IMG/VR virus record: IMGVR_UViG_3300042314_001260
Coordinates: 1 to 22,388 of that record
Length of the DNA: 22,388 nucleotides
DNA from: a virus
Reading direction: 5' to 3' (one strand)
Positions 1-21,868 of the stretch are shown in pieces; the stretch's first letter is position 1, and every line of letters begins with the position of its first letter. Under the pieces are notes generated by a model. The model saw nothing but the letters and a program-made list of their open reading frames with translations, did no database searches and was not told the origin of the DNA. Made by a program: the position numbers and the translations under genes.

Positions 1-1
1 A

Positions 2-841: not shown

Positions 842-842
842 T

Positions 843-1301
843 ATGGCCGGCGTAATTCCAATGAATGGATATCTCACCCCCGAGCAGGCCGCAATGATGG
901 CCGGTATTGAGGATCCAGGCGAGCGCATGAACACACTGGGCGGCATGCAGCGCTTTGCAAACATGCTGCCCCAGATGAACCAGATCAAAGAGCGCAGCAA
1001 CGGCCGCGTAGTTGGTCGCACTGATCCTATGGAAGGTTTGTCTCAGATGGGATCGCAGCTCGCTGGCGCGTACATGAACAAGCAGCTGATGGACAAGTAC
1101 GGCGCGATCATGGACAAGAACAATCAGCAACGCATCAGCGCTGCACAGATGCTCGCAGATGCTTTGCGCAGAACACCGGCGGCGGGTGCCGCAGCACCTG
1201 GTGTAGCTCAGGCATACCCTGTCGCTTCGCAGACTCCAGCAAACGGGCGCGAGATTCCTGCGTACACGCCGCACGAAATCGACTACTACGGCGGCTACTA
1301 A
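843..1301 (+). CDS. Small putative virion protein
   Basis: A 152-residue protein that starts one base after the previous stop and ends three bases before the next start, so it is probably translationally coupled. It is rich in Met, Gln, Ala and Gly, has no TM segment or signal peptide, and ends in an Ala/Pro-rich stretch followed by the aromatic tail DYYGGY. The composition is like its neighbours, which are internal virion or tail proteins. I do not recognise the family. A minor structural or assembly role is inferred only from position and composition. Confidence 0.65.
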   Translation: MAGVIPMNGYLTPEQAAMMAGIEDPGERMNTLGGMQRFANMLPQMNQIKERSNGRVVGRTDPMEGLSQMGSQLAGAYMNKQLMDKYGAIMDKNNQQRISAAQMLADALRRTPAAGAAAPGVAQAYPVASQTPANGREIPAYTPHEIDYYGGY

Positions 1302-1304
1302 GAC

Positions 1305-2882: not shown

Positions 2883-2885
2883 AGC

Positions 2886-4676
2886 ATGGTTAGACCCGTA
2901 ACCGATCCAGCATTGCTCGAGCAGCTCAACGGAGGAGGCGGTGCCGTAACCGATCCTGCGTTGCTAGAGCTTCTGAATGCCAACCCACAAGCAGCCAAAG
3001 CTGCGCAGTTCGCAGGCGGCGACAACGTCAAAGAGATGAACCCCGTCATGAAGGTGCTCGGGGGCGCAAAAAGCGCCTTTGACCGCGCAGCTTATGGCGT
3101 CGGCTCGCTTGTGCCTGACATCCTGCCAGACGGTGTTCGCGATTACATTAACGACAGCACGTTCGCCAAGGTAACCGGCCTAACGATGCCATCAAACAAG
3201 CAGATGGCTGACGATGTCGCGCAAGGTCGTGCCTTTGTTAAAGACGCAGGCGGCTGGGGCATTGCTGGAGATATCGCCGGCGAGGTTGGCTTGACCTTGG
3301 TGCCTGGTGCAAAGGGTATGCAGACCGTTCAGGCTGGCGGTCGCATGTTGCCTCGAGCTCTTGGATTTATCCCAAGCAGCACAACCGGAGCGGCTGCGAT
3401 TAGCGGCGGTGCCATTAACGCCCTCACCACGCCTGACGATCGCGTAGGCGGTGCAATAGCCGGTGCTGCAGGCGGTGCCATTGGTGACGTCGCGGGGCGA
3501 GCGTTGACAAAAACTCTAGGTGGCATGATTTCCAATAGGGTTACGCCTGACGCCCGCCATCTGATGGACGACGGTGTCTTCGTTCCGATGTGGAAAGGCA
3601 CCGACAGCGGCCTTGTGCGCAATTTGTCTGAGCGAGCCAAAGTTCTCCCGATCGCTGGCGACATCATTCGCGGCCAAGAGCGCTCGGCATTTGAAAGCTT
3701 TAACAAACGCCTGGCTGAAATTGCAACACCGCCCAAGCCTGTGCTTGATGACGTCGGCAACGTGCTGCGCTGGGAAAACAGCCCTGTGAAGCTTTCTGGC
3801 TCGGACGCTATTAACGGCCTACGCGGCCGTTTTAATGATGCCTACGACGCGCTTTACAAGGGGCGCGGGATACCAGTTGATGACGTCTATGCAAACCAGA
3901 CAGCAAACATTCTGGAGAGCACTAAAAATTACTTCCCGCGCATAGCAGACGATGTCGAAGCGGCTTTTAGACAGGCAGACGACATCCTTCGCAAGGGCAC
4001 AGAGACAACAACGTCACTCAGCCCAATCAGTAACGCGTCCGGACAGCCGTTTGTAAACACTCAGCTTGGTCATGCAGCTACACGGCCAGAGTCGGTTAAG
4101 CAAGCGATCGATGTGCTCGATACCCGCATTAAGACAGCGTATGGCCGCGGCGATGCCGAGGCAGCAGAAGCCCTCAAGGATCTGCGCAGTTCGATTGAAC
4201 AGCTGCGTATGCGCGGCTTGCCGCCCGAGGTTGCTGATCAGGCTGCAGACATTAATAAGGCCTATGCAAGCTTCATCCAGCTGCAGCGTGCTAATGCCAG
4301 CCTGGGAGCTCAGAAGGCCGAGATGGTTTCCCCAGGGCAAATGCTTAACTCAATCAAAGCAGGTGATCGCACACCAAACAAATCTGCATTCTCAGGCGGC
4401 AACGCGCTGAACCAAGCAGAGGTTCTGCGTGCCGAGCGTGTTCTCGGGAATCGCTTGCCAGATGTCGGACCAGGTACTGCAGAAAAGCTTGCTCCCTTTA
4501 TTGGCTTCGGGGGTCCCATGATCCTCGGCGACATGGGCGCTACTGCATTACTTGGTACAAAAACCGGGCAGCGCTTTTTGATGGGCGACCTACCTGGTCA
4601 AGCAGGAATACGTCAATACGGAAGTCAATATCTTGTGCCGGCGCTTCGCAACTTCGGCATGTCGGTTGGAAATTAA
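2886..4676 (+). CDS. Large internal virion / DNA-ejection protein
   Basis: A 596-residue protein starting four bases after the transglycosylase stop. The N-terminus carries a tandem motif, VTDPALLEQLN and VTDPALLELLN (about residues 4-31), a short repeat recalled at the N-termini of other phage internal proteins. Residues ~140-215 form hydrophobic Gly/Ala-rich segments that look membrane-active, such as AGAAGGAIGDVAGRAL, followed by a long helical region. Its size, the membrane-active stretch and the neighbouring virion transglycosylase suggest a podovirus-type ejection protein that helps make the DNA channel across the envelope. No enzymatic motif is seen. The exact family is not recognised. 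Confidence 0.65.
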   Translation: MVRPVTDPALLEQLNGGGGAVTDPALLELLNANPQAAKAAQFAGGDNVKEMNPVMKVLGGAKSAFDRAAYGVGSLVPDILPDGVRDYINDSTFAKVTGLTMPSNKQMADDVAQGRAFVKDAGGWGIAGDIAGEVGLTLVPGAKGMQTVQAGGRMLPRALGFIPSSTTGAAAISGGAINALTTPDDRVGGAIAGAAGGAIGDVAGRALTKTLGGMISNRVTPDARHLMDDGVFVPMWKGTDSGLVRNLSERAKVLPIAGDIIRGQERSAFESFNKRLAEIATPPKPVLDDVGNVLRWENSPVKLSGSDAINGLRGRFNDAYDALYKGRGIPVDDVYANQTANILESTKNYFPRIADDVEAAFRQADDILRKGTETTTSLSPISNASGQPFVNTQLGHAATRPESVKQAIDVLDTRIKTAYGRGDAEAAEALKDLRSSIEQLRMRGLPPEVADQAADINKAYASFIQLQRANASLGAQKAEMVSPGQMLNSIKAGDRTPNKSAFSGGNALNQAEVLRAERVLGNRLPDVGPGTAEKLAPFIGFGGPMILGDMGATALLGTKTGQRFLMGDLPGQAGIRQYGSQYLVPALRNFGMSVGN

Positions 4677-4688
4677 AGGAGAAACGAA

Positions 4689-5699
4689 ATGCCACGCAAC
4701 GCATCAGGCACCTACACACTGCCAGCTGGAAACCCAGTAGTAACTGGCACCCTAATTGAGTCCTCATGGGCTAATGACACGCTTGGCGATCTAGCCAGCG
4801 CAATGACCGACTCGCTCTCGCGTGATGGCGAAGGTGGGATGACCGCAGCTCTGCGTGTCGTTGACGGCACAGTCAGCGCTCCAGGCCTTGCATTTGTGAA
4901 CGAGACTGGCAGCGGCTTGTATCGCACTGGTGCTGGCGATTACTCTTTTGCCGTTTTAGGTACGCAGAAAATGCGTATTACGTCTAACGGCGTTGATGTG
5001 ACGGGCGCATTTTCTGTCAGTGGGGACACGTTGACGGTCTCATCGAGCACTGCCTACTACCCGCAGATGATCGCTCGCAACAAGACCAACGACGCCAACG
5101 CTGGATACCTTGTTCTTGAGAAAGATCGTGCTGGTGCAGTCGTGCAAAACGGCGACATTCTTGGCAGCCTGATTTTTCGTGGATACGACGGTGCTGCATA
5201 CCTGCAGGGAGCGGCTATTACCGCGTCCGTGAACGCGGCTCCTGGAACAAACGACATGCCCACCGCGATGATATTCGCAACAACACCAGACGGTGGCGCT
5301 GGTGTCTCCGAGCGCATGCGTTTGCAGCTAGGACTTTCTGTCGGCACAACAGCAGATCCCGGCGCAGGTGCCATATACGCCACCGGCAACATCACGGCGT
5401 ACTACTCGGACGAGCGCTTAAAGACCAAGCTCGGCAACCTTGAGAGCGCACTCGACAAGATCTGCGCGATCGACACGTTTTACTACGAGGCCAACGAAAC
5501 CGCTCAGGCGCTCGGCTACAAGGCAGAACGTGAGGTTGGTGTTTCGGCTCAATCAGTTCAAGCCGTATTCCCAGAGCTTGTCGCTCCCGCTCCAATTGAT
5601 GCTCAATATCTAACTGTGCGTTATGAGCGTTTAGTGGCACCGATCATCGAAGCGATCAAAGAGCTGCGTGCTGAGGTTGCTGCATTAAAGGGGGAGTGA
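4689..5699 (+). CDS. Tail fibre protein with S74 intramolecular chaperone domain
   Basis: A 336-residue fibre. The start is supported by an AAGGAG site just upstream. The N-terminus (LPAGNPVVTGTLIESSWAND) is a familiar virion-attachment type in phage fibres. A beta-rich shaft or head region spans about residues 55-235. YYSDERLKTKL begins at residue 238, the S74 signature, followed by about 95 residues including VGVSAQSVQAVFPEL and a C-terminal helix (VAPIIEAIKELRAEVAALK). In this family the domain trimerises the fibre and then cleaves itself off, with the cut just before the serine, here S240. It lies directly upstream of a glycine-rich adhesin, so the two may form one adsorption device. Confidence 0.85.
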   Translation: MPRNASGTYTLPAGNPVVTGTLIESSWANDTLGDLASAMTDSLSRDGEGGMTAALRVVDGTVSAPGLAFVNETGSGLYRTGAGDYSFAVLGTQKMRITSNGVDVTGAFSVSGDTLTVSSSTAYYPQMIARNKTNDANAGYLVLEKDRAGAVVQNGDILGSLIFRGYDGAAYLQGAAITASVNAAPGTNDMPTAMIFATTPDGGAGVSERMRLQLGLSVGTTADPGAGAIYATGNITAYYSDERLKTKLGNLESALDKICAIDTFYYEANETAQALGYKAEREVGVSAQSVQAVFPELVAPAPIDAQYLTVRYERLVAPIIEAIKELRAEVAALKGE

Positions 5700-5700
5700 A

Positions 5701-7278
5701 ATGACTCTACCAGCAAGCGGTCAAATATCGATGTCGCAGGTGAACGTCGAGCTGTCGCTGTCTGCGACGGCTCAGATCGCTCTTGGCGATGCAGCCGTTC
5801 GCAATCTTGCGCAAGTGCCGTCTGGTGCTATTAGCTTGGACAACTTGCACGGCAAGTCGTCTGGAGTTTTAGCAACTTATCTGATCGTTGGTGGAGGTGG
5901 CGGCGGCGCAACGAGCCTATACGGAGGCGGTGGTGGTGCGGGTGGCGTATTGACCGGCACGGCAAGTTTCCCATTGTCCACAGGAACAGCAATTACCGTC
6001 GGTGGAGGTGGTGGAGCGCAAGCGGGTGGCTCCAATTCATTGATTGCCGGTGTAGCCACAGCTTACGGCGGTAATGGCGCAACTTGGCAAGTCGGTGCTG
6101 CGTCGGGTGGAGGCGTAGCTGGACAAACGTATCCGGGTGGTAGCAATGCCAGCAATAGCGGAGGTGGTGGAGGTGGTGCTGGAGCAGCTGGCGCTAACGC
6201 CGTCGACAACTACTCGTCTGGATCGGGCGGCGCAGGAAAGGCAAGCAGCATCACTGGCTCGTCAGTTCTTTATGGCGGTGGAGGTGGTGCTGGTGGCCGA
6301 ACAGCTGACATCGGAATCTTCCCCGGAGCTGGTGGAGCAACCGGAGGCGGTAACGGCGGAAGCAACCCCGAAAACGGCTACGCAGGAACGGCAAACACCG
6401 GTGGCGGCGGCGGTGGTGCAGGCTACAACGGAAACTTCGGGGTTGGTGGAGCAGGCGGCTCAGGTGTTGTTCGTATTCGCTACCCCGGCGCACAGCAATT
6501 TGCCGGTGGAACGGTCACAACTGTTGGCAGTGACACCCTTCACACCTTCACTTCGAGCGGCACGCTTGATCCCGGTATTGCGATCGACTATCTGCTTATC
6601 GCAGGCGGTGGTCAAGGTGGCGGCGGTCACGGTGGCGGCGGTGGTGGTGGTGCCGGTGGTTTCCTTGAAGCCAGCGGCGTAATTGCCGTAAATCGCACGC
6701 ATGTAGTTACTGTCGGTGCAGCTGCTAACAACAGCGTTCTTGCAGTCTCTGGTGGGGCAACTATCGCTACCGCTATTGCCGGTGGCTATGCACCGGGTGG
6801 TAATGGTGGAAGCGGTGGCGGTGGTCAAGGTACGCAAGAGGTAGCAGCACCGGGCAACGGAACAGCCGGGCAAGGAAACAGAGGCGGCTATGCGCAATAC
6901 ACATCCGACTTTGGTAACGCTGCGGGCGGTGGCGGCGCCGGTGGAGTTGGCGGTAACAGCCAATGTACGCACTGCGGTGGAGATGGTGGTTTAGGAAAGA
7001 CCACAACCATCACTGGCACGACACTGACTCTTGCGAGCGGTGGCGGCGGTGGCGGCTACGCCACGATGGGGGTCGCCCCACCCGGAGGCGGTGGAAATGC
7101 TGGTTACCCCGGCCAAGCAAACACGGGCGGCGGTGGCGGCGGTGGGAACCTTGGCGGCTCTGGCGTCGTATTCCTCAGATACCTCGGCGCACAGAAGTTT
7201 ACCGGCGGCACTGTCACCTCTTCAGGTGGCTACACCATTCACCAATTCAACTCGAGCGGCACTCTTGTGCCTATCTAA
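5701..7278 (+). CDS. Glycine-rich tail adhesin with duplicated domain
   Basis: A 525-residue protein, starting one base after the fibre stop with a GGGGGAG ribosome site. Residues 1-54 (SGQISMSQVNVELSLSAT through NLHGKS) resemble a short N-terminal module recalled in many phage tail proteins. Two homologous glycine-rich domains follow, about residues 59-291 and 296-525. Each opens with [YL]LI[VA]GGG, carries many runs of three to seven glycines, and closes with GSGVV-x2-RY-x-GAQ-x-F-x-GGTVT...T-x-H-x-F-x-SSGTL. Runs like these can pack as polyglycine-II helices, as in the S16 gp38 adhesin; using that fold here is inference. The protein probably binds the host surface. The GC-rich Gly codons make out-of-frame ORFs here artefacts. 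Confidence 0.85.
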   Translation: MTLPASGQISMSQVNVELSLSATAQIALGDAAVRNLAQVPSGAISLDNLHGKSSGVLATYLIVGGGGGGATSLYGGGGGAGGVLTGTASFPLSTGTAITVGGGGGAQAGGSNSLIAGVATAYGGNGATWQVGAASGGGVAGQTYPGGSNASNSGGGGGGAGAAGANAVDNYSSGSGGAGKASSITGSSVLYGGGGGAGGRTADIGIFPGAGGATGGGNGGSNPENGYAGTANTGGGGGGAGYNGNFGVGGAGGSGVVRIRYPGAQQFAGGTVTTVGSDTLHTFTSSGTLDPGIAIDYLLIAGGGQGGGGHGGGGGGGAGGFLEASGVIAVNRTHVVTVGAAANNSVLAVSGGATIATAIAGGYAPGGNGGSGGGGQGTQEVAAPGNGTAGQGNRGGYAQYTSDFGNAAGGGGAGGVGGNSQCTHCGGDGGLGKTTTITGTTLTLASGGGGGGYATMGVAPPGGGGNAGYPGQANTGGGGGGGNLGGSGVVFLRYLGAQKFTGGTVTSSGGYTIHQFNSSGTLVPI

Positions 7279-7301
7279 GCAAACAAAGGAGCAAAAGAAA
7301 T

Positions 7302-7691
7302 ATGTCCCACTTTGCAAAACTAGACGAAACAGACACCGTAATTCAGGTGCTTGTCATTGAGCAGGACGCTATCAATACGGGGTTGTTTGGTGACCCAGCG
7401 TCGTTCGTTCAAACAAGTTACAACACCAAAGGCGGTGTTCATTACGACGCAGTAACCATGCAGCCGTCGGCCGATCAAAGTAAAGCATTACGAAAAAACT
7501 TTGCGTGCATTGGCGACAAGTACGACCGCGTGCGGAATGCGTTTATCAAGCCACAGCCGTTTGCGTCGTGGGTGCTAAACGAAGACACATGCCTTTGGGA
7601 TGCGCCTGTCGCAAGACCTCAAGACGGCAAGATCTACGACTGGGATGAGGCGACGACAACCTGGAAGGAGATTGTGTTGACCGCTGCATAG
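7302..7691 (+). CDS. Small conserved phage protein of the tail-fibre region
   Basis: A 129-residue protein. The ATG at 7302 is chosen because AAAGGAG lies 10 bases upstream and the sequence from MSHFAKLDE onward is the part I recognise; the longer reading frame runs back into the Gly-rich adhesin gene. Features are VIQVLVIEQD, SYNTKGGVHY, LRKNFACIGDKYD, AFI-x-PQPF-x-SWVLNEDTCLWDAP and DGKIYDWDEATTTW. Closely similar small proteins occur beside tail genes in cyanophages and other aquatic phages (recalled, not searched). No function is established to my knowledge. Aromatic and Trp-rich sequence suggests a small beta-rich fold, perhaps a structural or accessory tail protein. Confidence 0.8.
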   Translation: MSHFAKLDETDTVIQVLVIEQDAINTGLFGDPASFVQTSYNTKGGVHYDAVTMQPSADQSKALRKNFACIGDKYDRVRNAFIKPQPFASWVLNEDTCLWDAPVARPQDGKIYDWDEATTTWKEIVLTAA

Positions 7692-7716
7692 CGATAAGCA
7701 CAACGTAGAAAGATAA

Positions 7717-8337
7717 GTGAAACAAGAAGACAGCCAGAGCAGCACGAAGGACACTCTTATGAGTGTCCTCTCGTACATCGATAGCCCTTTCAAGCTCCTG
7801 GTGGTCTTGCTGCTTGGCGTTCTCGGATTCGTTGGCTATTTCATCTACACCAATCAAGGCGTGATGCTTGGCGCCTACCTTCAATCGCGAGAGATGCCAA
7901 AACTCGACGATTCACGCTTCGATGATGCGGCCGCGATGATCTTTAAAGAGACGGGCGCCGAGGTCGTGTCGATCTTTACGGTCGATCCGATCTTGAATAA
8001 GCGCGTCCTGGTTCGTGCCTACACCAAGGGCGGTGGACGTCAGAAGTCGCTCGAGGGAGTGGACGTCAAGCTCTTCTCCAATAGCTCAACCAATAACGCC
8101 GACGTCGTAAAGCTTATGGCCGGCGAAGTTCCGTGCGGCCAGTACTTGCGACCACAGTCGGTCGCCGGTTTGTTCTATTTATCCCAGGGCGTGCAGTACA
8201 CCTGTCGGGTGAGTAGCCCATCGGCAAAAGAGCAGTTCGTAGGCCAGATCACTGCGGGATGGATGGTCGAGCCTGACCTTGATCACGCACGGTCTGTCCT
8301 GACAATCGTCGCCGATATGTTGGTGAAACAAAAATAA
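7717..8337 (+). CDS. One-TM protein of the lysis cassette, candidate holin
   Basis: A 206-residue protein from a GTG at 7717, or 192 residues from the ATG at 7759. One strongly hydrophobic segment (FKLLVVLLLGVLGFVGYFIY, residues 25-44 of the long form) is followed by a ~160-residue soluble domain with two cysteines (PCGQYL and YTCRV). Topology would be N-in, C-out. A single N-terminal TM plus a large periplasmic domain is the layout of the phage T4 holin T, and the gene lies where a holin is expected: the downstream endolysin has no signal sequence and needs one. Sequence homology to T cannot be claimed. The soluble part could also be a GAF-like sensor fold. The ATG has a better ribosome site (GAAGGA) than the GTG, but that site is inside a hairpin. 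Confidence 0.65.
   Translation: MKQEDSQSSTKDTLMSVLSYIDSPFKLLVVLLLGVLGFVGYFIYTNQGVMLGAYLQSREMPKLDDSRFDDAAAMIFKETGAEVVSIFTVDPILNKRVLVRAYTKGGGRQKSLEGVDVKLFSNSSTNNADVVKLMAGEVPCGQYLRPQSVAGLFYLSQGVQYTCRVSSPSAKEQFVGQITAGWMVEPDLDHARSVLTIVADMLVKQK
7746..7769 (+). promoter_or_regulatory. Hairpin hiding the internal ribosome site of the candidate holin gene
   Basis: AGGACACTC (7748-7756) and GAGTGTCCT (7761-7769) form a perfect 9-bp stem with the four-base loop TTAT. The Shine-Dalgarno GAAGGA (7746-7751) is in the 5' arm and the ATG (7759-7761) straddles loop and 3' arm. In mRNA this would block the ATG start while leaving the GTG at 7717 free, or give a switchable dual start. No T-tract follows, so it is not a terminator. 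Confidence 0.6.
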
Positions 8338-8348
8338 GGAGTAAATAA

Positions 8349-8435
8349 ATGAAAGAAAAATTGGAAGGACTCAGGGCTTGGTTTAAGGCGAAGTGCGAAG
8401 CAGTAAAGGCCTGGTTTTCAAGAGCAAAGTCCTAA
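8349..8435 (+). CDS. 28-residue cationic amphipathic peptide in the lysis cassette
   Basis: An AAGGAG site at 8336-8341 lies 7 bases before the ATG, and the TAA stop directly abuts the next ATG at 8436, so translation is well supported. The peptide has 8 Lys/Arg against 3 Glu (net about +5). It contains an 11-residue repeat, RAWFKAKCEAV then KAWFSRAKS. Placed on a helix, L5, L8, W11/F12, C16, V19 and W22/F23 form one hydrophobic face with the basic residues opposite. It has no TM segment. It lies between the candidate holin and the i-spanin. A membrane-active lysis accessory, similar in idea to the cationic phage disruptin of phiKT, is possible, but this is inference from composition and position. 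Confidence 0.65.
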   Translation: MKEKLEGLRAWFKAKCEAVKAWFSRAKS

Positions 8436-8870
8436 ATGATCCCGATGCTTTACCTCAAGATTGGCATTGCCGTGCTTGTTGTCGCCGGGGCTTACTACAA
8501 AGGCTATGCGGACGAGCATGAGCGCTTCTTGAAATTTCAGGCTGAAGTCGCAGCCGTTGGGAAAGCGCAAGAGCTTGCCAACCAAAACGCAGTCAAGACG
8601 GCGGAGTTAATTTCAGAAGGGGTCAAAGATGAGTATGAAGTTCGTATCGCTGCTATTCGCAGTCACTACTCTAATAACACTCGCCGGGTGCAGCAGTGTG
8701 GTTCCGGTGGCAGTAACTTGCCCCCCGTTCCCCAGCCCGCCGGCGTCGTTAATGGAGGCGCCGACGACCCTGCCCTTATTGAACTTTGTGCAGCCGAAAC
8801 AGCAAAGCTCGTAGCTTTGCAGAAATGGATTTCTAAACAGCAAGAGGTAAGTAAAAATGGAAATCAGTAA
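8436..8870 (+). CDS. Rz: i-spanin (Rz-like)
   Basis: A 144-residue protein starting immediately after the preceding stop. An N-terminal uncleaved membrane anchor (LYLKIGIAVLVVAGAYYKGY, residues 5-24) is followed by a charged, helical, coiled-coil-prone periplasmic region. Rz proteins anchor in the inner membrane and join outer-membrane Rz1 to fuse the two membranes in the last step of gram-negative lysis. The assignment is made firm by a lipoprotein gene nested in the +1 frame at 8629-8814. The last 14 bases overlap the endolysin start, an inverted order since lambda places Rz after the endolysin. It implies a diderm host. Confidence 0.85.
   Translation: MIPMLYLKIGIAVLVVAGAYYKGYADEHERFLKFQAEVAAVGKAQELANQNAVKTAELISEGVKDEYEVRIAAIRSHYSNNTRRVQQCGSGGSNLPPVPQPAGVVNGGADDPALIELCAAETAKLVALQKWISKQQEVSKNGNQ
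8629..8814 (+). CDS. Rz1: o-spanin lipoprotein (Rz1-like) nested inside Rz
   Basis: A 61-residue protein entirely inside the i-spanin gene in another frame. MSMKF starts a signal peptide whose hydrophobic core ends in the lipobox LAGC (residues 18-21), so the mature outer-membrane lipoprotein would be about 41 residues starting at C21. The mature part is proline-rich (CPPFPSPP), as usual for Rz1. AGAAGGGG at 8615-8622 precedes the ATG at 8629; the ATG at 8635 is an alternative. Fully embedded Rz/Rz1 pairs are a known arrangement. Confidence 0.88.
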   Translation: MSMKFVSLLFAVTTLITLAGCSSVVPVAVTCPPFPSPPASLMEAPTTLPLLNFVQPKQQSS

Positions 8871-9468
8871 AGAGCAGCTAGTCTCTTCAGGCATCTGTAG
8901 CCCAGCAATGGCCGACAAGTGGTGTGATCAGCTCAATGCCACTATGAATCGATTTGAGATCAATACGCCGTACCGCGTGGCGGGCTTTCTTGCCCAGGTC
9001 TCGCACGAATCTGGTGGTTTTCAGTTTGTCACCGAGAACCTGAACTACAGCGCCGAGGCTCTCTCCCGCGTCTGGCCAAGCCGGTTCCCTGCCGACATCG
9101 CCGCCGCCTACGCCAGGAACCCCGAGAAAATCGCCAATCGTGCCTACTGCGACCGCATGGGCAACGGCGACGAGGCAAGCGGCGATGGCTGGACGTATCG
9201 CGGCCGTGGGCTCATCCAATTGACCGGCAAGGACAACTACGCGGCCTTCTCGCTTCAGTGCGACAACGAGGCCCTGGTGGATCCCAACCTGGTCGCGGAG
9301 CCGGCGCTGGCCGCTGATTCTGCCGGGTGGTTTTGGTCCAGGAACGGGCTCAACGCCTTGGCCGACGCAAACGACATCGTCGCCATGACCAAGCGCATCA
9401 ACGGCGGCACGCACGGCATCGATCACCGGCAGCAGCTGTACGCTGGAGCGATGTCAGTTTTTGCTTAG
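8857..9468 (+). CDS. Endolysin, glycoside hydrolase family 19 type
   Basis: A 203-residue enzyme that starts 14 bases before the Rz stop, with AAGAGG upstream. GH19 chitinase/lysozyme landmarks are visible: FLAQVSHESGGF with catalytic Glu at residue 51, a second acidic residue at E60, YRGRGLIQLTG (residues 114-124), and ITKRINGG-like MTKRINGGTHG near the end. It would hydrolyse glycan strands of peptidoglycan. There is no signal peptide or SAR segment, so release needs a holin, which fits the upstream one-TM gene. It is the last gene of the rightward late region; a terminator lies at 9720-9750. Confidence 0.9.
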   Translation: MEISKEQLVSSGICSPAMADKWCDQLNATMNRFEINTPYRVAGFLAQVSHESGGFQFVTENLNYSAEALSRVWPSRFPADIAAAYARNPEKIANRAYCDRMGNGDEASGDGWTYRGRGLIQLTGKDNYAAFSLQCDNEALVDPNLVAEPALAADSAGWFWSRNGLNALADANDIVAMTKRINGGTHGIDHRQQLYAGAMSVFA

Positions 9469-9772: not shown

Positions 9773-10765
9773 TTAAGCAACAACCCGCAGATTTGGCTTC
9801 GAACTCGTGCTGATGTTGATGTTCTTGGCCTGCTCGATCAGGTGTTTTTGAGAAAGGTGAGCGTACCTCTGGAGCATCGAAGCTGATCTCCAGCCTCCTA
9901 ACTCCTGAATGACATGCATTGGCGTGCCGGCCATTGCATGCCAGCTGGCAAAGGTATGCCGCAGGTCATGGAACCTCATGGTCTGCGGCAAGTCAGCTTT
10001 ATTAAGCGCCGACTGCCACGCCTTCCAACTAATCTGCTCCACAGTAAACACAAAGACGTCGTGCTTGCCCTCTTGCGCCTTGATCGCTTTGTAGGCGTCA
10101 TCGTTAAGCGGCACAGGGATCGCGCGACCCGCCTTGGCATCCTCTGGATTAATCCAAGCCATACGCTTCTCAAGATCCACCTGGTCCCAGCGCAACCCGT
10201 AGATGTTTGATTTGCGCAGCCCCGTGGAGACGGCCAACACGGCTGGCGCCTTGTGGCCCTCGGGCAACGCATCGACCAAGTCGCTAAATTGCGCAGGCGT
10301 CAGGTACGACACGCGAGAGTTTTGCTCGACATACGTTTGAAAAGCCGGGACGCGATCGACCCACTCCCACACATCCCGCGCACGGCGAAAAATTGCACGC
10401 AGCAATGCGACGTAGCGGTTCTTGGTCGCAGGCGTATCAAAGCCAGCCAGAAGCCCGACAACCTGATCGCGGGTGATGCTGTCTAACGTCAGCTTGCCCA
10501 GGTGAATACGGAAGTACTCAAGCTTTGCAATATCGTCGCGAATCGAGCGCTTGTGGTCCTTCTCATCAAGCCAGCGGACTGCGGCCTGCTCGAAGGTGTA
10601 CTTGGGCTTGACGCCTAAGCGCTCCTGCTCCCACAGATCAGCCTTGATTTTGTCGTGGAGCTCTTGCGCAGCTTTTCGCGAGCTTGTCTTAGCCGATCTT
10701 CTAACAGTGTGGTGATCGGTCTGGATGTAGATGTGCCAGACGTCCCCTCGTTTGAATATAGACAT
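9773..10765 (-). CDS. int: Tyrosine-recombinase integrase
   Basis: A 330-residue site-specific recombinase. Residues 1-50 look like an arm-binding domain, ~55-140 a SAM-like core-binding domain, and ~150-310 the catalytic domain. The catalytic set is visible: R184 in STGLRKSNI, K211, H266-x-x-R269 with H270 in RFHDLRHTF, W292 in LGGWRS at the His/Trp position, and nucleophile Y301 in QRYAHLS. It would recombine attP at 9588-9635 with a host tRNA-Asn gene. The ATG at 10765 has AAGGA 9 bases upstream. It overlaps the excisionase ORF by 151 bases, lies at the distal end of the leftward operon, and also has a candidate private promoter inside xis. Confidence 0.96.
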   Translation of the reverse strand: MSIFKRGDVWHIYIQTDHHTVRRSAKTSSRKAAQELHDKIKADLWEQERLGVKPKYTFEQAAVRWLDEKDHKRSIRDDIAKLEYFRIHLGKLTLDSITRDQVVGLLAGFDTPATKNRYVALLRAIFRRARDVWEWVDRVPAFQTYVEQNSRVSYLTPAQFSDLVDALPEGHKAPAVLAVSTGLRKSNIYGLRWDQVDLEKRMAWINPEDAKAGRAIPVPLNDDAYKAIKAQEGKHDVFVFTVEQISWKAWQSALNKADLPQTMRFHDLRHTFASWHAMAGTPMHVIQELGGWRSASMLQRYAHLSQKHLIEQAKNINISTSSKPNLRVVA

Positions 10766-10935
10766 GGTTCGTGTTCCTTGGGTTTGTGTTTAAGTGCTTC
10801 CTTGGTTTCGTTTAAATCCAGCCGCCATGCACCTCCGATCCGGTAGGCAGGCAGCTGGCCCTTGTCGATCAATCGACGCACAGTTGAGCTTGATACCCCA
10901 AGCTCGACTGCTGTTTCTAGTATAGTTTTAAGCAT
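10615..10935 (-). CDS. xis: Excisionase-like helix-turn-helix protein
   Basis: A 106-residue ORF whose first ~45 residues match the small MerR-type excisionase fold: helix-turn-helix LETAVELGVSSSTVRRLIDK (residues 6-25) and the wing LPAYRIGGAWRLD (28-40). Such proteins bend attachment-site DNA and bias integrase toward excision. The remaining ~55 residues are polar and low in complexity, and lie over the integrase start in another frame, so the functional domain is probably just the N-terminal part. The ATG is 17 bases beyond the RuvC stop codon, with an operator-like site across the junction. It could instead be a general DNA-binding protein, but its position next to int favours Xis. Confidence 0.8.
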   Translation of the reverse strand: MLKTILETAVELGVSSSTVRRLIDKGQLPAYRIGGAWRLDLNETKEALKHKPKEHEPCLYSNEGTSGTSTSRPITTLLEDRLRQAREKLRKSSTTKSRLICGSRSA

Positions 10936-10948
10936 GATATGTTGTCAA
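10919..10948 (-). promoter_or_regulatory. Candidate integrase promoter inside xis (pI-like)
   Basis: On the minus strand TTGACA (10948-10943) is a perfect -35, followed by an 18-bp spacer and TATACT (10924-10919) as -10. The start point would fall inside xis, downstream of its ATG, giving integrase without complete Xis. Lambda pI has the same placement. The -35 is inside an operator-like site. Confidence 0.55.
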
Positions 10949-10956
10949 ATTCTCAA
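10941..10956. promoter_or_regulatory. Operator-like site at xis/int
   Basis: Minus strand TTGAGAATTTGACAAC. It shares TTGAGA-N3-T-N-ACAAC with sites at 18141 and 18891 and covers a candidate -35 box. Likely bound by the phage repressor or Cro. Confidence 0.6.
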
Positions 10957-13314: not shown

Positions 13315-13496
13315 TTTTTTGCCTTCGCGCGATCAAGCTTGACCTCGGGGTAATAAAGCTTGCCGCCGATGTTGCTGGGTTCTTTCAATGCGTCGAGAGA
13401 ACCAGGGCGTGGGACGATGTTGAAGAAGTGAGCAATTGAAAGATGAGGGCGATTGACCCTTTCAATCATGTTGGGTGGTACGGGCTTCGATGTCAT
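13311..13496 (-). CDS. Small early protein, unknown
   Basis: 61 residues. The ATG overlaps the methyltransferase stop as ATGA and its own stop overlaps the next ATG the same way, so it is translated in a coupled chain. Basic and proline-containing (RPHLSIAHFFNIVPRPGSLDALK), with no TM or signal. I recall similar short phage ORFs but no function. Confidence 0.68.
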   Translation of the reverse strand: MTSKPVPPNMIERVNRPHLSIAHFFNIVPRPGSLDALKEPSNIGGKLYYPEVKLDRAKAKK

Positions 13497-14764
13497 GTTG
13501 TCTCCTGTTGATTTTGTTTTTGTATGCGTTTGCCGATCCAGTGCATGACTGGCACGGCCATTGAATTACCTAGTGCTTTGTAGCGAGGACCGTCTGGCGC
13601 GTCGTCTTTCTTGCGCCAAGGGATGTTTGTGTAACCGTCAGGAAAACCTTGCAAGCGCTCGCACTCGGTTGGGGTTAGGCGGCGGACTGCCATGTTTGCT
13701 AACGCCACAGCGGGAAGCGGTCTGCCGCCACCTGTCGGCGATCCTTTGAGCAGTGGACCAGTTACGTCATCAGGTCCGTGAGCGTTGTTTTCATAGTCAA
13801 CGCCGCCGATAATCGGCTGAATAGTCACTGGCACATTCCCACCACCCATGCCATATGTAGCAGATACTGTCCCACAAACATCTTTTAATTCAGTCACTCG
13901 ACTGTCTTGACTATGTAGTTCGTAAACGGGCTGCGCCACCCCATGCACACCCGTCGCATTAAGCGTGTACATTGGGCCACCAACAGTAAATCCATCACCA
14001 TTGCCGCCGTTTTGTGGTTGTCTACCAATTGTGTTTTCGGCAAGGGCGATGCAAGGTACAAATGTTTCAGTTTCAGAATCAAGGCGAGTTTTTGTAATTA
14101 GACATTTTGCAACGTCCGGCGTAACAGTTACACACTCTTCATGGTTGTTGCGGCTGATTCCAAAGCGCGCTGCAATTGTTCCGGCAACCTCTTGCCCCTT
14201 TTCTCTGCTCGGCGCAGGATTCCCTGACAAGCTGTGGGGCTCAAAAAGAACCGCTGCTGCACTGCGCCAGTCTCCAAGACATCCGACAACGAACACACGA
14301 CGGCGTCGCTGGGCCACTCCAAAGTATTGAGCGTCCAGCACTCGGTATGCGAACCCGTACCCGAGTTCTGCCACCGCCCCGAGGAAGGAACCAAAATCCC
14401 GTCCTCCAGATGAACTGAGGACGCCCGGTACGTTTTCCCAGACAAACCATTTGGGCTTAAAGCGGTCAAGAATTCCGCAATAGACGAGGGCGAGGTTTCC
14501 TCGGGGGTCTTCAAGACCTTTGCGTAACCCGGCGACGCTAAAGGACTGACAAGGGGTTCCTCCGACAAGAAGGTCAACTGGGTGCTCAAAATTCCACTCC
14601 TTATATTTGGTCATGTCGCCCACGTTTGGGACTGATGGGTAGTGATGCGCCAAGACCTCAGACGGGAATGGCTCAATCTCTGAAAATGCAAGGGGAGACC
14701 ACCCCAGCGTGTGCCACGCCACGGTCGCTGCCTCAATGCCACTGCACACGCTTAGGTATCTCAT
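13493..14764 (-). CDS. DNA (cytosine-5) methyltransferase
   Basis: 423 residues from the ATG at 14764, which is 17 bases after the DUF669 stop and starts directly at motif I; the frame is open further upstream, but that part overlaps DUF669 in another frame. C5-MTase motifs: SVCSGIEAATVAW (motif I, residues 5-17), GGTPCQSFSVAG (motif IV, nucleophile C72), ENV (110-112), QRRRRVF (motif VIII, 152-158), then a variable target-recognition region of ~200 residues, and ALGNSMAVPVM (motif X) near the end. It would methylate cytosines in phage DNA, probably to escape host restriction; no partner nuclease is seen. Target sequence cannot be read. A second ORF is overprinted on residues ~59-212. Confidence 0.95.
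   Translation of the reverse strand: MRYLSVCSGIEAATVAWHTLGWSPLAFSEIEPFPSEVLAHHYPSVPNVGDMTKYKEWNFEHPVDLLVGGTPCQSFSVAGLRKGLEDPRGNLALVYCGILDRFKPKWFVWENVPGVLSSSGGRDFGSFLGAVAELGYGFAYRVLDAQYFGVAQRRRRVFVVGCLGDWRSAAAVLFEPHSLSGNPAPSREKGQEVAGTIAARFGISRNNHEECVTVTPDVAKCLITKTRLDSETETFVPCIALAENTIGRQPQNGGNGDGFTVGGPMYTLNATGVHGVAQPVYELHSQDSRVTELKDVCGTVSATYGMGGGNVPVTIQPIIGGVDYENNAHGPDDVTGPLLKGSPTGGGRPLPAVALANMAVRRLTPTECERLQGFPDGYTNIPWRKKDDAPDGPRYKALGNSMAVPVMHWIGKRIQKQNQQETT
14128..14589 (-). CDS. Candidate overlapping gene inside the C5 methyltransferase
   Basis: A 153-residue ORF in a different frame on the same strand as the methyltransferase. It starts at TTG (14589) with a perfect AAGGAG (14602-14597) 7 bases upstream; in the methyltransferase frame those bases encode Lys-Glu. 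The protein reads STQLTFLSEEPL near the start, SSGRWQNSGTGSHTECWTLN in the middle, then VVCSLSDVLETG, RFFLSPTACQGILRRAEKRG and LPEQLQRAL. I recall proteins with these same segments annotated in other phages next to or over C5 methyltransferases, but cannot check. Stop-free length alone is weak evidence. The ribosome site and the recognisable protein sequence are the stronger points. Function unknown. Confidence 0.5.
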   Translation of the reverse strand: MSTQLTFLSEEPLVSPLASPGYAKVLKTPEETSPSSIAEFLTALSPNGLSGKTYRASSVHLEDGILVPSSGRWQNSGTGSHTECWTLNTLEWPSDAVVCSLSDVLETGAVQQRFFLSPTACQGILRRAEKRGKRLPEQLQRALESAATTMKSV

Positions 14765-14780
14765 TGCTGCAAAGCCCCTT

Positions 14781-16042: not shown

Positions 16043-16426
16043 TCACTCCTCAATTTCAATAGAGACGCCAGTCTTCTGAGGCTTAACCTCAACAGCGCGG
16101 GCGATTTGGGACCAGAGCGCGGGTTGCTCTGAACGGATTTTTTTAAGGCGCGTCTCGTCAACCTTAAGCTCGAGGCGCAGTGGACGAATGTCGTCTGGCC
16201 AGCTCTCGGTCATCTCATCGAGCTTGATGCGGTCCACCTTGTAGGAAAGCTTGCCGACCGTGGTGATCTTGATGCCGTCACCGATGTCGGTCGTGGTGGA
16301 GCCCTCTTCCTTGGTGTTTACAAGCTTGACCAGCTGCTCCTCGACCGCAATGCGGCGCAGGTTGGCCAGGCGCTCATCGGTCTTAGCTGCGAGCCATTCG
16401 TTGGTTAATTCCTTAGCTGTTGGCAT
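16043..16426 (-). CDS. Small early protein near the recombination genes (paralogue A)
   Basis: A 127-residue protein ending five bases before the Sak4 start. Helical N-terminus, then a beta part EEGSTTTDIGDGIKITTV, and a C-terminal half with SWPDDIRPLRLELKVDE, RLKKIRSEQPALWSQI and VEVKP. I recall this type upstream of phage annealing or ssDNA-binding genes (DUF7173-like, from memory). A shorter paralogue lies at 16934-17269 in the same operon. Function unknown; the position suggests a recombination or replication accessory. Confidence 0.75.
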   Translation of the reverse strand: MPTAKELTNEWLAAKTDERLANLRRIAVEEQLVKLVNTKEEGSTTTDIGDGIKITTVGKLSYKVDRIKLDEMTESWPDDIRPLRLELKVDETRLKKIRSEQPALWSQIARAVEVKPQKTGVSIEIEE

Positions 16427-16441
16427 AATCTCAACACTCCA

Positions 16442-18088: not shown

Positions 18089-18126
18089 GTTGCTTTCTCC
18101 GTTTGTGTTTGTGTTGAACTGATGCC

Positions 18127-18155
18127 ATTACAGCATGGCATTGAGAAAATCACAA
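18127..18155 (-). promoter_or_regulatory. Early leftward promoter (PL-like)
   Basis: On the minus strand TTGTGA (18155-18150), a 17-bp spacer, and TGTAAT (18132-18127) with an extended TGC just before it. Transcription would begin near 18120 and run through all leftward early genes. The -35 is part of an operator-like site. TGCCAT/ATGGCA (18123-18128/18135-18140) forms an additional inverted repeat over the -10. Confidence 0.65.
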
Positions 18156-18156
18156 C
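18141..18156. promoter_or_regulatory. Operator-like site at the early left promoter
   Basis: TTGAGAAAATCACAAC. The 15-mer TTGAGA-AAA-TCACAA is a near-perfect palindrome, broken only at position 4/12 and the centre. It is the most symmetric of three related sites (others at 10941 and 18891). Confidence 0.65.
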
Positions 18157-18851: not shown

Positions 18852-18876
18852 TCCCGTGAGTGGATGTTTCGTGTCG

Positions 18877-18905
18877 ATTTTACTACTCTATTGAGATATT
18901 AACAA
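18877..18905 (-). promoter_or_regulatory. Repressor maintenance promoter (pRM-like)
   Basis: Minus strand TTGTTA (18905-18900), 17-bp spacer, TAAAAT (18882-18877). The predicted start near 18870 leaves a ~20-base leader to the repressor ATG. The -35 is one half of the operator-like site, which implies autoregulation. Confidence 0.6.
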
Positions 18906-18906
18906 C
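18891..18906. promoter_or_regulatory. Operator-like site between repressor and cro
   Basis: TTGAGATATTAACAAC, third member of the set at 18141 and 10941, located 12 bases before the cro ATG. It would control both the repressor and the rightward early transcript. Confidence 0.62.
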
Positions 18907-18918
18907 CTATTAAAAATC

Positions 18919-19152: not shown

Positions 19153-19200
19153 TATTCCCATAGCGTTGTTAAAAAAGCAATGAGATAAGAAAATGACAAC

Positions 19201-19270
19201 GGCGGTCGGCACTCACGCACTGATCATGCATTGAGCTGGGTCTTCACTCTCCCTCCCCGAGCCGACCGCC
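19201..19270 (+). promoter_or_regulatory. Long-range hairpin in the leader of the primase gene
   Basis: GGCGGTCGGC (19201-19210) and GCCGACCGCC (19261-19270) are perfect 10-bp GC-rich complements separated by 50 bases. The loop includes CTCCCC (19253-19258), which is complementary to the primase Shine-Dalgarno GGGGAG (19308-19313). It is the main content of the 167-base gap between cro and the primase gene. It may be a translational control element or a protein or replication site in DNA. A 13-codon ORF begins at 19193 but is not convincing as a gene. Confidence 0.5.
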
Positions 19271-19319: not shown

Positions 19320-21272
19320 ATGTCCGCTGTACTTCAAGAAGAGCCATCACCAGTGATCAGATATTCGCTTGGCGTGAGCCGGTTCGATGCGACGCCTAAG
19401 CAGTGCCAGGCTGCAGACTTTCAAGCGTTTCAAACCGAGGTTTTGTCCAAGCGAGCGGCCGTCAAGGGCTACACCTATATCTCGGCACCATTCAGTAATG
19501 GCCAGCGCTCCAAAGAGAGCGTAGAGCTCTCGCGATTCATCCCGATGGATTTCGATGGGATGCCAGGTGAGGAAGCATTCATAGAACTGCGCACCTGGTT
19601 GATTCCGTATTCAGCATTTGCTTACACCACCTCTAGTCACACCCCAGAATCCCCCAGGGCGCGAGCCATCCTTGAGGCATCCAGAGAGATGACCAGGGAA
19701 GAGAGGATCCGTGTGTGCATGGCTGTTCAAGCCAGGATTGAGCGCGACATACAAGGCATCAAGTTTGATGCGAGTGTGTATCGCGGCGAACAGCCTTTTT
19801 TTACACCTATGTTTACGTCGACCGATTACTTCTTCGAAGGCGAGCCGATCGACGTAGACGCCATGCTGGCCGAGGCGCCTGAGCTCAAGCCTGAGGGCGC
19901 AAGCACGGCCAAGAACCTGGCGCAGATATCGAGCACCGACCCTGTCCTGCGTGAGCTGCTTGCACGCAGCATGGTGAAGCGTGACCTGGGCGGGGGGCGC
20001 TTTGCTGTGCATTGCCCATGCGCCGACGAGCACTCGGGACCGAGCGAAAGTGAGACGGCCACCGTCTACACGCTGCCTAAGTTCAACGGCTTTGACTTCG
20101 GCAACTTCACTTGCTTGCATGACCACTGCAGGACGCGGCCACAGCACGCATTCACCCAGGCGCTAGACCTCGAGCACAACCAGGTCAGGGGCGAGCAGTC
20201 CAAGGTCCTGAATGTGGACCACAGCATCTTGATTCACAAGCAACAGGAAAAGATCCAGGTCCAAGCAGAAGAGCGTCGGGGGCGGTTCAGGTTCTTACGC
20301 GCAGCTGACTTGATGCGTGAGCAGCGCGTTGGCTGGCGTGTCCTGGATGTGATCCCCAGGCGCGGCCTGGTCGTGATGTGGGGCGCTCCAGGCTCAGGGA
20401 AGTCATTCGCCGCGTTCGACATCGGTGCAGCGATAGCGCGAGGCAATAAGTATCGCGGCAAGAGAGTCAAGAAAGGGCTGGTGCTTATCATCGCGGCCGA
20501 AGGCGACCTGACGTCCAGGACGATGGCCTACATCCGCGAGAACAACCTGGCCGAGGACGAGCTTGAGAACCTGCTCATCATGCAAAGAGCCGTCAACATG
20601 CTGGACCCGCACCAGGACATGGACGACCTGCTCGAGACCATGCAGATGGTGACAGACAGCGTGGGCGAGGAGCTCGCGCTAGTGATTGTCGACACGCTTA
20701 ACCGGGTGATGCCAGGCGGCAATGAGAACGCCTCCGAAGATATGGGCGCCGTCATCAGCAACGCCAAGAAGATAGAAGAGCAGTTCCAGTGCGCCGTGAT
20801 GTTTATCCATCACTCGGGCAAGGATGAGACCAAGGGCTCCAGAGGCCACTCGAGTCTGAAAGGCGCGATGGATGCCGAGATCAGCATCATCAGAAACGAG
20901 GACATCCGCACCTTCAGGATAGAAAAGCAAAAGGAAGGGCGCGACTACTACGACCTGTACAACTTCAAGTTGAAGACCATCGACCTGGGCGCGATGTCCG
21001 ACTTCGACTCGGATGCCGAGGAGCATGAGCGCCTGACCAGCTGCGTGATTGAGGAGACCGATGAGGTGCCCGATCGCCAAGTCATCACAAAGAACACAGG
21101 AATCCTTCAGGCCGCGTTGCTGGCCTCAGAGACAGGCAACAGGGAAGACGTCCGACTCAAGTACTACGAGCTGCACACGGGGAACGCCGAGGCCAAGCGC
21201 AAAGCGTTTAACCGAGATTGGGGCAAGTACATGGGCGAGCTGGTTAACCGTAAGACAGGGGAAAGGGAATGA
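19320..21272 (+). CDS. Primase-helicase fusion (RepB-like primase, zinc motif, RepA-like ATPase)
   Basis: A 650-residue replication protein. The start follows GGGGAG by 6 bases. Residues ~10-190 carry FIPMDFDG (acidic pair D77/D79) and TTSSHTPESPRARAI, the pattern of archaeo-eukaryotic-type phage/plasmid primases. Residues ~230-271 hold a metal-site candidate HCPCADEH ... FTCLHDHC. Residues ~325-560 form a RecA-fold hexameric helicase domain of the RSF1010 RepA (AAA_25) kind: Walker A GAPGSGKS (355-362), Walker B LVIVDTL (454-460), and MFIHHSGK (494-501). The C-terminal ~90 residues are helical and may bind partners. It would prime and unwind phage DNA, probably at the repeat-rich segment just downstream. 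It is the first major gene of the rightward early transcript. Confidence 0.92.
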   Translation: MSAVLQEEPSPVIRYSLGVSRFDATPKQCQAADFQAFQTEVLSKRAAVKGYTYISAPFSNGQRSKESVELSRFIPMDFDGMPGEEAFIELRTWLIPYSAFAYTTSSHTPESPRARAILEASREMTREERIRVCMAVQARIERDIQGIKFDASVYRGEQPFFTPMFTSTDYFFEGEPIDVDAMLAEAPELKPEGASTAKNLAQISSTDPVLRELLARSMVKRDLGGGRFAVHCPCADEHSGPSESETATVYTLPKFNGFDFGNFTCLHDHCRTRPQHAFTQALDLEHNQVRGEQSKVLNVDHSILIHKQQEKIQVQAEERRGRFRFLRAADLMREQRVGWRVLDVIPRRGLVVMWGAPGSGKSFAAFDIGAAIARGNKYRGKRVKKGLVLIIAAEGDLTSRTMAYIRENNLAEDELENLLIMQRAVNMLDPHQDMDDLLETMQMVTDSVGEELALVIVDTLNRVMPGGNENASEDMGAVISNAKKIEEQFQCAVMFIHHSGKDETKGSRGHSSLKGAMDAEISIIRNEDIRTFRIEKQKEGRDYYDLYNFKLKTIDLGAMSDFDSDAEEHERLTSCVIEETDEVPDRQVITKNTGILQAALLASETGNREDVRLKYYELHTGNAEAKRKAFNRDWGKYMGELVNRKTGERE

Positions 21273-21556
21273 ATGAGCGATTGCTAGAACTTGCTCTGCA
21301 GGCTGGGGCTCGAGAGTGCGATACAGGAGCCTTGATCACAGACGACATTGCCCTGACGCAATTTGCCGAGCTGGTGCGCCAAGACTTGTACCAAGTGATC
21401 GGCAAAAACGTGATTGAGCAGATCAATGGGGCAACGCAGATGGAGCGGAAGGCTTGCGCTCAGATCTGTTTAGTAATGGCGAGCAAAACTGAGGACATTC
21501 GGAGGGCTGCTTTGGAGGTTGCTGCTGAAAATATCCTGGCTCGAGGTGGTCAATGA
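21269..21556 (+). CDS. Small protein coupled to the primase gene
   Basis: A 95-residue helical protein whose ATG overlaps the primase stop (ATGA, 21269-21272). The C-terminal half, ERKACAQICLVMASKTEDIRRAALEVAAENILARG, resembles the ends of many short phage replication-region ORFs (recalled). No TM or catalytic motif. Coupling to the primase suggests a replication accessory, but the function is unknown. Confidence 0.72.
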   Translation: MNERLLELALQAGARECDTGALITDDIALTQFAELVRQDLYQVIGKNVIEQINGATQMERKACAQICLVMASKTEDIRRAALEVAAENILARGGQ

Positions 21557-21558
21557 GC

Positions 21559-21680
21559 GGGACATTGTGTCCCGGGACAGCGGGACAAACGAGACAAACA
21601 TGTCCCGCAGACAACCAGGAAGGGCGGGACAAACGGGACATCTGTATATATACAGTGTCCGTGTCCCGCTCTGATGTCCC
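21559..21680. repeat. Iteron-rich candidate replication origin
   Basis: In 122 bases there are five exact GGGACA (starts 21559, 21574, 21582, 21626, 21635) and four exact TGTCCC (21568, 21601, 21662, 21675), plus near-copies such as GAGACA at 21591. TGTCCCGGGACA at 21568-21579 is a 12-bp palindrome. The centre is the AT palindrome CTGTATATATACAG (21642-21655) flanked by GGGACA and TGTCC, so the whole can fold into a long cruciform. Repeats occur in all three frames, so they are not protein repeats. Position directly after a primase-helicase gene suits an origin; binding by a repressor or terminase are alternatives. Confidence 0.6.
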
Positions 21681-21712
21681 GGTCGGTAAGGATTCTTGAG
21701 GGGGTGGGTGCG

Positions 21713-21793: not shown

Positions 21794-21868
21794 CTTTTCC
21801 CGCATGTTGTGGAAAGTGCAAGGTGTGGTGAGAATGTCTTATCAATTAAAAATTGGGGTGAGATTGAG

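Follow-up and report, generated by a model that had tools for sequence, protein, structure and literature searches.

Single dispersed pseudo-palindromic sites as probable operators of a CI-like repressor in a clade of uncultured phages

The locus and its relatives

The window, by which we mean the whole stretch of DNA analysed, is a 22,388-base IMG/VR phage contig from an uncultured virus of bacteria. Its rightward open reading frames are followed by a long leftward early (recombination) operon that holds small genes and genes for DUF7173 proteins, a Sak4-like AAA protein, SSB, a methyltransferase, a nuclease-like protein, a RuvC-like resolvase, Xis and Int (Table 1). A gene for a CI-like repressor lies upstream of this operon, and on the other side of the repressor are a divergent Cro-like gene, a primase/helicase gene and a terS-like gene.

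Judged by the repressor, the nearest named phages were Itty13, BcepIL02 and other Lessievirus-like phages (26-32% identity), and closer relatives were found among IMG/VR contigs only, which are denoted here by L numbers. Compared with the repressor of the window, those of L005-L008 are nearly identical, and identity is 80% in L009/L010, 73% in L011, 66% in L014, about 47% in L021/L022 and L024, and 39% in L025. The sole find of a genome scan for the integrase was a locus in an Erwinia MAG, 38% identical. The DNA cytosine methyltransferase gene (13493-14767) varies strongly, with 57-99% identity among otherwise near-identical contigs, and L009 and L010 lack it.

Table 1. Coordinates of genes, candidate operators and predicted promoters in the window; bits are full-matrix scores.
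Feature	Coordinates	Strand	Remarks
Rightward ORFs	1-9468	+	
Long leftward (early/recombination) operon	18088 to 9773	-	
Tyrosine integrase (int)	9773..10765	-	PF00589, 1.3e-30; ATG at 10765
Excisionase-like protein (xis)	10615..10935	-	HTH_17; PHROG 'excisionase' families; ORF overlaps 5' end of int
DUF7173 protein	16043..16426	-	PF23791, 6e-9; start codon within operator C
CI-like repressor, 208 aa	18225..18851	-	HTH_3, 1.1e-7; likely binder
Cro-like protein, 77 aa	18919..19152	+	P22_Cro, 8e-4, under Pfam cut-off; possible second binder
Primase/helicase	19320..21272	+	AAA_25; PHROG primase/helicase families; first gene past operator E
Operator A, TTGAGATATTAACAAC	18891..18906	+	67-bp repressor/cro gap; perfect match; 21.9 bits, rank 2
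Operator B, TTGAGAAAATCACAAC	18141..18156	+	Gap between repressor stop and left early operon; 22.5 bits, rank 1
Operator C, TTGAGATTATGCCAAC	16419..16434	-	Overlaps DUF7173 start codon and ribosome-binding region, inside left operon; 15.4 bits, rank 5
Operator D, TTGAGAATTTGACAAC	10941..10956	-	Across stop of RuvC-like gene and gap before xis start codon; 19.5 bits, rank 3
Operator E, TTGTTAAAAAAGCAA	19166..19180	+	Between cro and primase; 15.7 bits, rank 4
Possible weak site F, TTGTGGAAAGTGCAA	21807..21821	+	Upstream of terS-like gene; 9.0 bits
Predicted repressor promoter, TTGTTA-17-TAAAAT	18877..18905	-	9/12; -35 is half-site of A
Predicted left-operon promoter, TTGTGA-17-TGTAAT	18127..18155	-	-35 is half-site of B
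Predicted int-only promoter, TTGACA-18-TATACT	10919..10948	-	11/12; -35 is half-site of D
Predicted primase promoter, TTGTTA-17-GAAAAT	19166..19194	+	8/12

Related sites at gene boundaries

An earlier note on this DNA had placed three related sites at 10956-10941, 18141-18156 and 18891-18906. All three are present exactly there, and no other perfect match to TTGAGANNNTNACAAC occurs in the window. When up to two mismatches were allowed, the window had six matches, compared with a mean of 1.28 in shuffled sequences, and 0 of 100 shuffles reached six. Given that this consensus was derived from the three sites themselves, out-of-sample tests were used. In 14 related and control records, 62 forward matches to TTGWNANNNTNWCAA with at most one mismatch were obtained against 8 for the reversed-pattern control, the records being related so that the 62 matches are not independent events.

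The control positions in the window and in its relatives were used to build a matrix, and in leave-out versions the position under test was dropped. The best five 15-mers of the window started at 18141 (B), 18891 (A), 10942 (D), 19166 (E) and 16420 (C), and the next best scored 11.2 bits. The five sites thus outranked the rest of the window, and the many equally good matches within coding regions that the earlier note had named as an objection were not found. With the leave-out matrices, the number of chance matches expected at the score of each site, based on whole-window shuffles, was 0 for A, 0 for B, 0.03 for D, 0.20 for C and 0.73 for E. The initial set of three was correct and also incomplete, since E and C are among the top five as well. 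These two are the weakest by score alone, and E, which had been noted as a weaker look-alike, is accepted as an orthologous operator because it is conserved in relatives.

Together the sites are five 15-bp pseudo-palindromes of the form TTG-N9-CAA (consensus TTGAGAWWWTCTCAA), one per gene boundary and spread across 8.2 kb. The pseudo-palindrome had been proposed from the window, and it recurs in relatives at the same boundaries (repressor/cro, post-repressor, cro/primase and xis start). The relatives with sites at orthologous places have repressors 39-80% identical, and the places of the operators were conserved while the flanking DNA often turned over. Matches in the regulatory gaps were compared with shuffles of the same AT-rich gaps, and there were 5 matches in the window (0.16 expected), 4 in L014 (0.10 expected) and 3 in L025 (0.17 expected; 1/1000 shuffles). 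The corresponding fractions were 8/1000 for L011 and 10/1000 for L021, and six of the seven phages exceeded at least 99% of the shuffles; L024 on its own showed no significant excess in this test (129/1000). The L025 count misses site E of that phage, which extends 3 bases into cro (7164-7178).

The 15-mer of operator A, TTGTTAATATCTCAA, is unchanged in the window, L007, L010, L011 and L014, and L025 has the variant TTGATAAAACCTCAA, while no site was found in the repressor/cro gap of L024. In the window this 67-bp gap holds one site only and no tripartite operator cluster. The gap after the repressor holds a site in every relative examined, reading TTGTGATTTTCTCAA in the window, TTGTGATTACCTCAA in L021, TTGCGATTACCACAA in L011, TTGCTATAATCTCAA in L010, TTGTTATAATCTCAA in L014, TTGACATTTTCTCAA in L024 and TTGAAATTTTTTCAA plus TTGCGTTTTTCTCAA in L025, and the flanks of this site in the window and L010 are unrelated. 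The two L025 copies are in tandem (8150-8220), and the second, TTGCGTTTTTCTCAA, has TAAAAT 16 bp past its half-site hexamer. Orthologues of operator D were found in L010, L021, L023 and L025, with the site at the xis start reading TTGAGAATTTGACAA, TTGATAATTTGACAA (L021) or TTGATATTTTCTCAC (L025). Operator E has orthologues in L010, L011, L014, L021, L024 and L025, and TTG-N9-CAA occurs in the cro/primase gap of every phage having that region. Operator C matches the consensus perfectly in L007 and L011, is eroded in L021, was not found in L025 and is otherwise, as in the window, one base off. A further one-mismatch match, TCGACAGAGTCACAA (L005; a variant in L009/L010), was rejected as a site since no regulatory boundary was recognised there.

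FNR/CRP-type factors bind half-sites of the type TTGAT/ATCAA, and the FNR site spans 14 bp. Single sites such as TTGATATTTTCACAA partly resemble FNR-type half-sites, which could suggest that a host regulator of this kind binds here. The present sites are spaced over 15 bp with an odd centre, are confined to the lysogeny and early gene boundaries of the clade and are absent from the examined stretches of BcepIL02 and Itty13. Binding by a host factor is therefore extremely unlikely, and an FNR-type identity was rejected on spacing, symmetry and copy number.

Site F scores at a level where about 2.4 chance matches are expected in the window, and it is kept as a possible site because TTG-N9-CAA is retained there in four phages (window, L014, L022 and L011). 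Several other elements were noted near E and F. A TTCCC box (19155-19159 and 21797-21801) lies 5-6 bp upstream of both sites and is also found in several relatives. In the primase leader (19201-19270) a 10-bp stem can be drawn, GGCGGTCGGC...GCCGACCGCC. Relatives conserve its pairing region, though with changes; there was no Rfam match, and the folding energy is ordinary (z 0.39). Upstream of terS (21555-21690), iteron-like GCGGGACAAACGGGACA repeats surround a TGTATATATACA palindrome; in L010 every repeat unit is GCGTGACA, as if the repeats evolved together with a protein that binds them. L007 has TTGAGAAAACCACAA close to the repeats upstream of terS, and this sequence was not found in the window.

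Predicted promoters under the sites

Promoters for int, the left operon and the repressor, each using a half-site as its -35, had been suggested at the three initial sites, and their hexamers and spacings were confirmed and are conserved across relatives. The repressor promoter has the same hexamers and spacing in L010, L011 and L014, and TTGATA-17-TACACT in L025. For the left operon, hexamers and spacing are identical in L021; this promoter was not listed by the promoter scan because the scan requires A at position 2 of the -10. The int promoter reads TTGACA-18-TATATT in L021 and TTGATA-17-TATTAT in L025, and the primase promoter reads TTGTGA-17-GAAAAT in L010 and L014 and TTGTGA-17-GATAAT in L011.

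When single sites were compared with flank shuffles, the result was mostly non-significant (fractions 0.02-0.99). In a set test, the gene direction was fixed and the best -10 lying 16-18 bp away from a half-site was summed over phages. The sets at A, B, D and E were each reached in 0 of 2000 flank shuffles, and the -10 at site F was weakly supported (fraction 0.044). Given that the single-site calls are weak, the promoter claim rests on these conserved sets, whose members are related sequences. The view that each operator covers a -35 was borne out at A, B and D, and also at E. It did not hold for the left operon of L010 and L014, where the operator covers the -10 (TATAAT) with TTTGCA or TTGTTT as the -35 17 bp upstream, or for operator C, at which no promoter and no -10 conservation were found (shuffle fraction 0.44). 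As far as these predictions go, the constant feature is an operator over a promoter in either register, not an operator over a -35.

These data also bear on whether the motif could be mere promoter consensus, with -35 half-sites that are symmetric by chance and have no operator function. The half-sites do coincide with -35 boxes at four places. However, the CAA of the far half is conserved though no promoter needs it, the motif lies on the -10 in L010 and L014, and site C has no promoter, which together make this explanation very unlikely. Operator C itself, with about 0.2 chance matches expected in the window, may be a roadblock to elongation, a weak accessory site or a coincidence.

In the cro direction, no conserved -35/-10 pair was found. 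The candidates near operator A (TTGAGA-18-AATCAT in the window and TTGAGA-17-GAAAAT in L014) were rejected, as they are not conserved and their -10 abuts or overlaps the cro ATG. There was no clear ribosome-binding site before cro at 18852-18918 in the window, and a leaderless cro mRNA is possible, as reported for PY54 (PMC4488713).

The -10 of the int promoter (10924-10919) lies inside xis, 11-16 bp past the xis ATG at 10935. Given this position, a transcript from the promoter should contain int but not the xis start, so that the embedded promoter should yield integrase without excisionase. A promoter over the xis start that serves int without xis is an arrangement like that of lambda pI, and it is kept in L021 and L025. 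L025 keeps the promoter with another half-site as the -35 and the -10 at another codon, which suggests that the promoter is under selection and is not a by-product of xis coding. From the position of operator D we infer that CI would repress this promoter.

The binding protein and comparison with known switches

The gene between A and B encodes an HTH protein with a lambda/LexA-type fold, which points to this CI-like protein as the binder. Its AF2 model has a pLDDT of 82, and the top Foldseek matches were the lambda-186 hybrid and lambda CI (E 7e-8 to 2e-6). The C-terminal domain matched lambda CI fragments with a TMt of 0.65-0.67, and LexA chains ranked lower; the protein thus combines a Cro/C1-type HTH (HTH_3) with a LexA/lambda-type C-terminal domain (Foldseek). 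Among the families listed for eight repressor members, at E up to 1, there was no match to peptidase S24. In the repressor alignment, judged by eye, the expected stretch showed no invariant Ser, and R/K/Q occurs where the Lys would be. Self-cleavage of the repressor is therefore doubtful, as no conserved Ser-Lys dyad was seen by eye. The Cro-like protein (AF2 model, pLDDT 90) was closest in fold to Cro of Xfaso1, N15 and P22 at E 0.06-0.5, none below 0.05, and on this model it likely belongs to the Cro family. A divergent gene for this 77-aa HTH protein is present in all clade members having the region.

Since both genes are always present in the clade, its sequences do not tell whether CI or Cro is the binder, and comparison with the Lessievirus-like phages was informative. 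In these (BcepIL02, DC1, JC1, Itty13, Parlo and Pavtok), a related CI gene (26-32% identity) is followed by the left operon. No TTG-N9-CAA sites were found in the stretches searched of BcepIL02 and Itty13. Instead, a 17-bp pseudo-palindrome with a different sequence occurs in both gaps flanking CI in Itty13 (GTTTGCATAATCGAAAC and GTTTGCAAAACGCAAAC), Parlo (GTTTGCATAACGCAAAC and ATTTGCAAAACGCAAAC) and BcepIL02 (GGTGCGACTATCGAACC and GGTTGTAAAATCTAACC). In these three the downstream copy supplies a -35 (TTGCAA, TTGTAA or TTGCAT) located 17-18 bp before TACAAT, TAGAAT or TACTAT, and one of these -10 hexamers was found 17-18 bp past the downstream copy in 7/7 phages examined. In a pairwise test for a shared palindrome, the result was clear for Itty13 and Parlo (0/100 shuffles each) and fair for BcepIL02 (2/100). 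DC1 and Pavtok gave a weak result (8/100), and JC1 and BcepMigl did not reach significance. The test is underpowered and picked the wrong pair in the window (54/100 shuffles), where site A is only partly symmetric, and it was applied to the Lessievirus-like set only. The word 'operator' is absent from the papers on JC1 and CSP3, and 'promoter' from that on JC1.

The layout is thus the same in both groups, with pseudo-palindromes flanking CI, the downstream one of which contains a -35, whereas the Lessievirus-like operator is 17 bp long with another sequence and tblastn detected no homologous Cro in BcepIL02 and Itty13. The layout stayed while the operator sequence and the helix-turn-helix of CI changed together, and this speaks for CI as the protein that reads the operators. 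It also suggests that the layout is old and that operators change together with their repressor, and the two groups offer a natural data set for the evolution of repressor-operator pairs.

These results weigh on the possibility that the Cro-like protein, as a lytic repressor, is the main user of the sites, with CI using other sites or only some of them. A Cro-like protein adjoins the sites in every phage of the clade, and in PY54 Cro is reported to bind one palindrome that lies upstream of the repressor gene (PMC4488713). However, the two-sided layout persists with another operator around the related Lessievirus-like CI genes in the absence of a Cro homologue in BcepIL02 and Itty13 (tblastn, 1e-4), CI is a better candidate than Cro for controlling int in a lysogen, and lambda-type CI and Cro share operators so that binding by Cro would not be exclusive. 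We therefore regard assignment of the sites mainly to Cro as unlikely. The five sites are most probably operators of the phage's own CI-like repressor, probably shared with the Cro-like partner. The symmetric sites overlap the predicted promoters of the repressor and the early operons, as in a CI-type switch. The earlier note proposed a single regulator for lysogeny, early genes and integrase, and support for this comes from the site, its place and the promoter spacing, all conserved in phages whose repressors have diverged down to 39-47% identity.

We infer the identity of the binder, repression by binding and the timing of events as follows. At four sites RNA polymerase would need one half-site as its -35, and a bound repressor dimer would exclude the polymerase. 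Repressor on A would block its own promoter, giving negative autoregulation, and repressor on B, E and D would do the same to the leftward-transcribed recombination operon, the rightward-transcribed primase gene and the integrase promoter at the xis start, respectively. In a lysogen all four promoters would then be off together, and one repressor can very probably switch off repressor, early, replication and integrase genes together during dormancy. Before repressor accumulates, integrase would be made from the embedded promoter with no excisionase, and the left operon would read through xis and int. Operator C, at a start codon with no promoter, may act as an elongation block or be a weak accessory site. 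The parts are of a known kind, that of the CI-type switch, and the set of single dispersed operators including one at an integrase promoter appears new, being undescribed as far as we have checked. It would represent a compact wiring for lysogeny control in an uncultured phage clade, with one operator type and one copy per control point.

The switch resembles that of lambda CI/Cro (OR, OL) in that the repressor and Cro-like genes diverge, that they share pseudo-palindromic operators which lie over promoters, and that the repressor has the lambda-repressor fold. In lambda, the CII-controlled pI serves int alone and pL serves xis plus int (PMC5300877), and the predicted int-alone promoter and early left promoter for xis plus int repeat this division. 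The differences are that the operators here are single whereas those of lambda are in tripartite clusters, that the repressor here shows no conserved Ser-Lys dyad, and that an operator covers the int promoter whereas lambda pI is switched on by CII. Among the window proteins scanned, domain and PHROG scans recognised no CII-like gene, and an integrase promoter under the common operator at the xis start would tie integration to the repressor level without a recognised CII.

The tripartite cluster is a mark of lambda itself rather than of all CI-type switches, and PY54 also has a single operator, adjoining cI (PMC4488713). The immB regions of N15, PY54 and phiKO2 share with the window a CI, an all-helical Cro and simple palindromic operators. 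They differ in operator sequence and in belonging to linear plasmid prophages, and control of integrase from a distant site is unmentioned in the passages on them (PMC4488713).

Finally, the stoperators of cluster A mycobacteriophages (L5, Bxb1) are asymmetric sites of 13-14 bp, present in 20-30 copies and oriented with transcription (PMC6550527). The likeness lies in one repressor with genome-dispersed sites, some of them away from promoters (PMC6550527). A combined scheme for a Gram-negative phage, in which single dispersed CI operators block promoters, give a stoperator-like block of elongation or translation start at the DUF7173 gene and also shut an int-only promoter that is CII-controlled in lambda, seems rather doubtful to us as a whole. 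A stoperator-type identity was ruled out on the same grounds as the FNR type, since the sites here are five symmetric 15-bp sequences in both orientations, four of them at predicted promoters.
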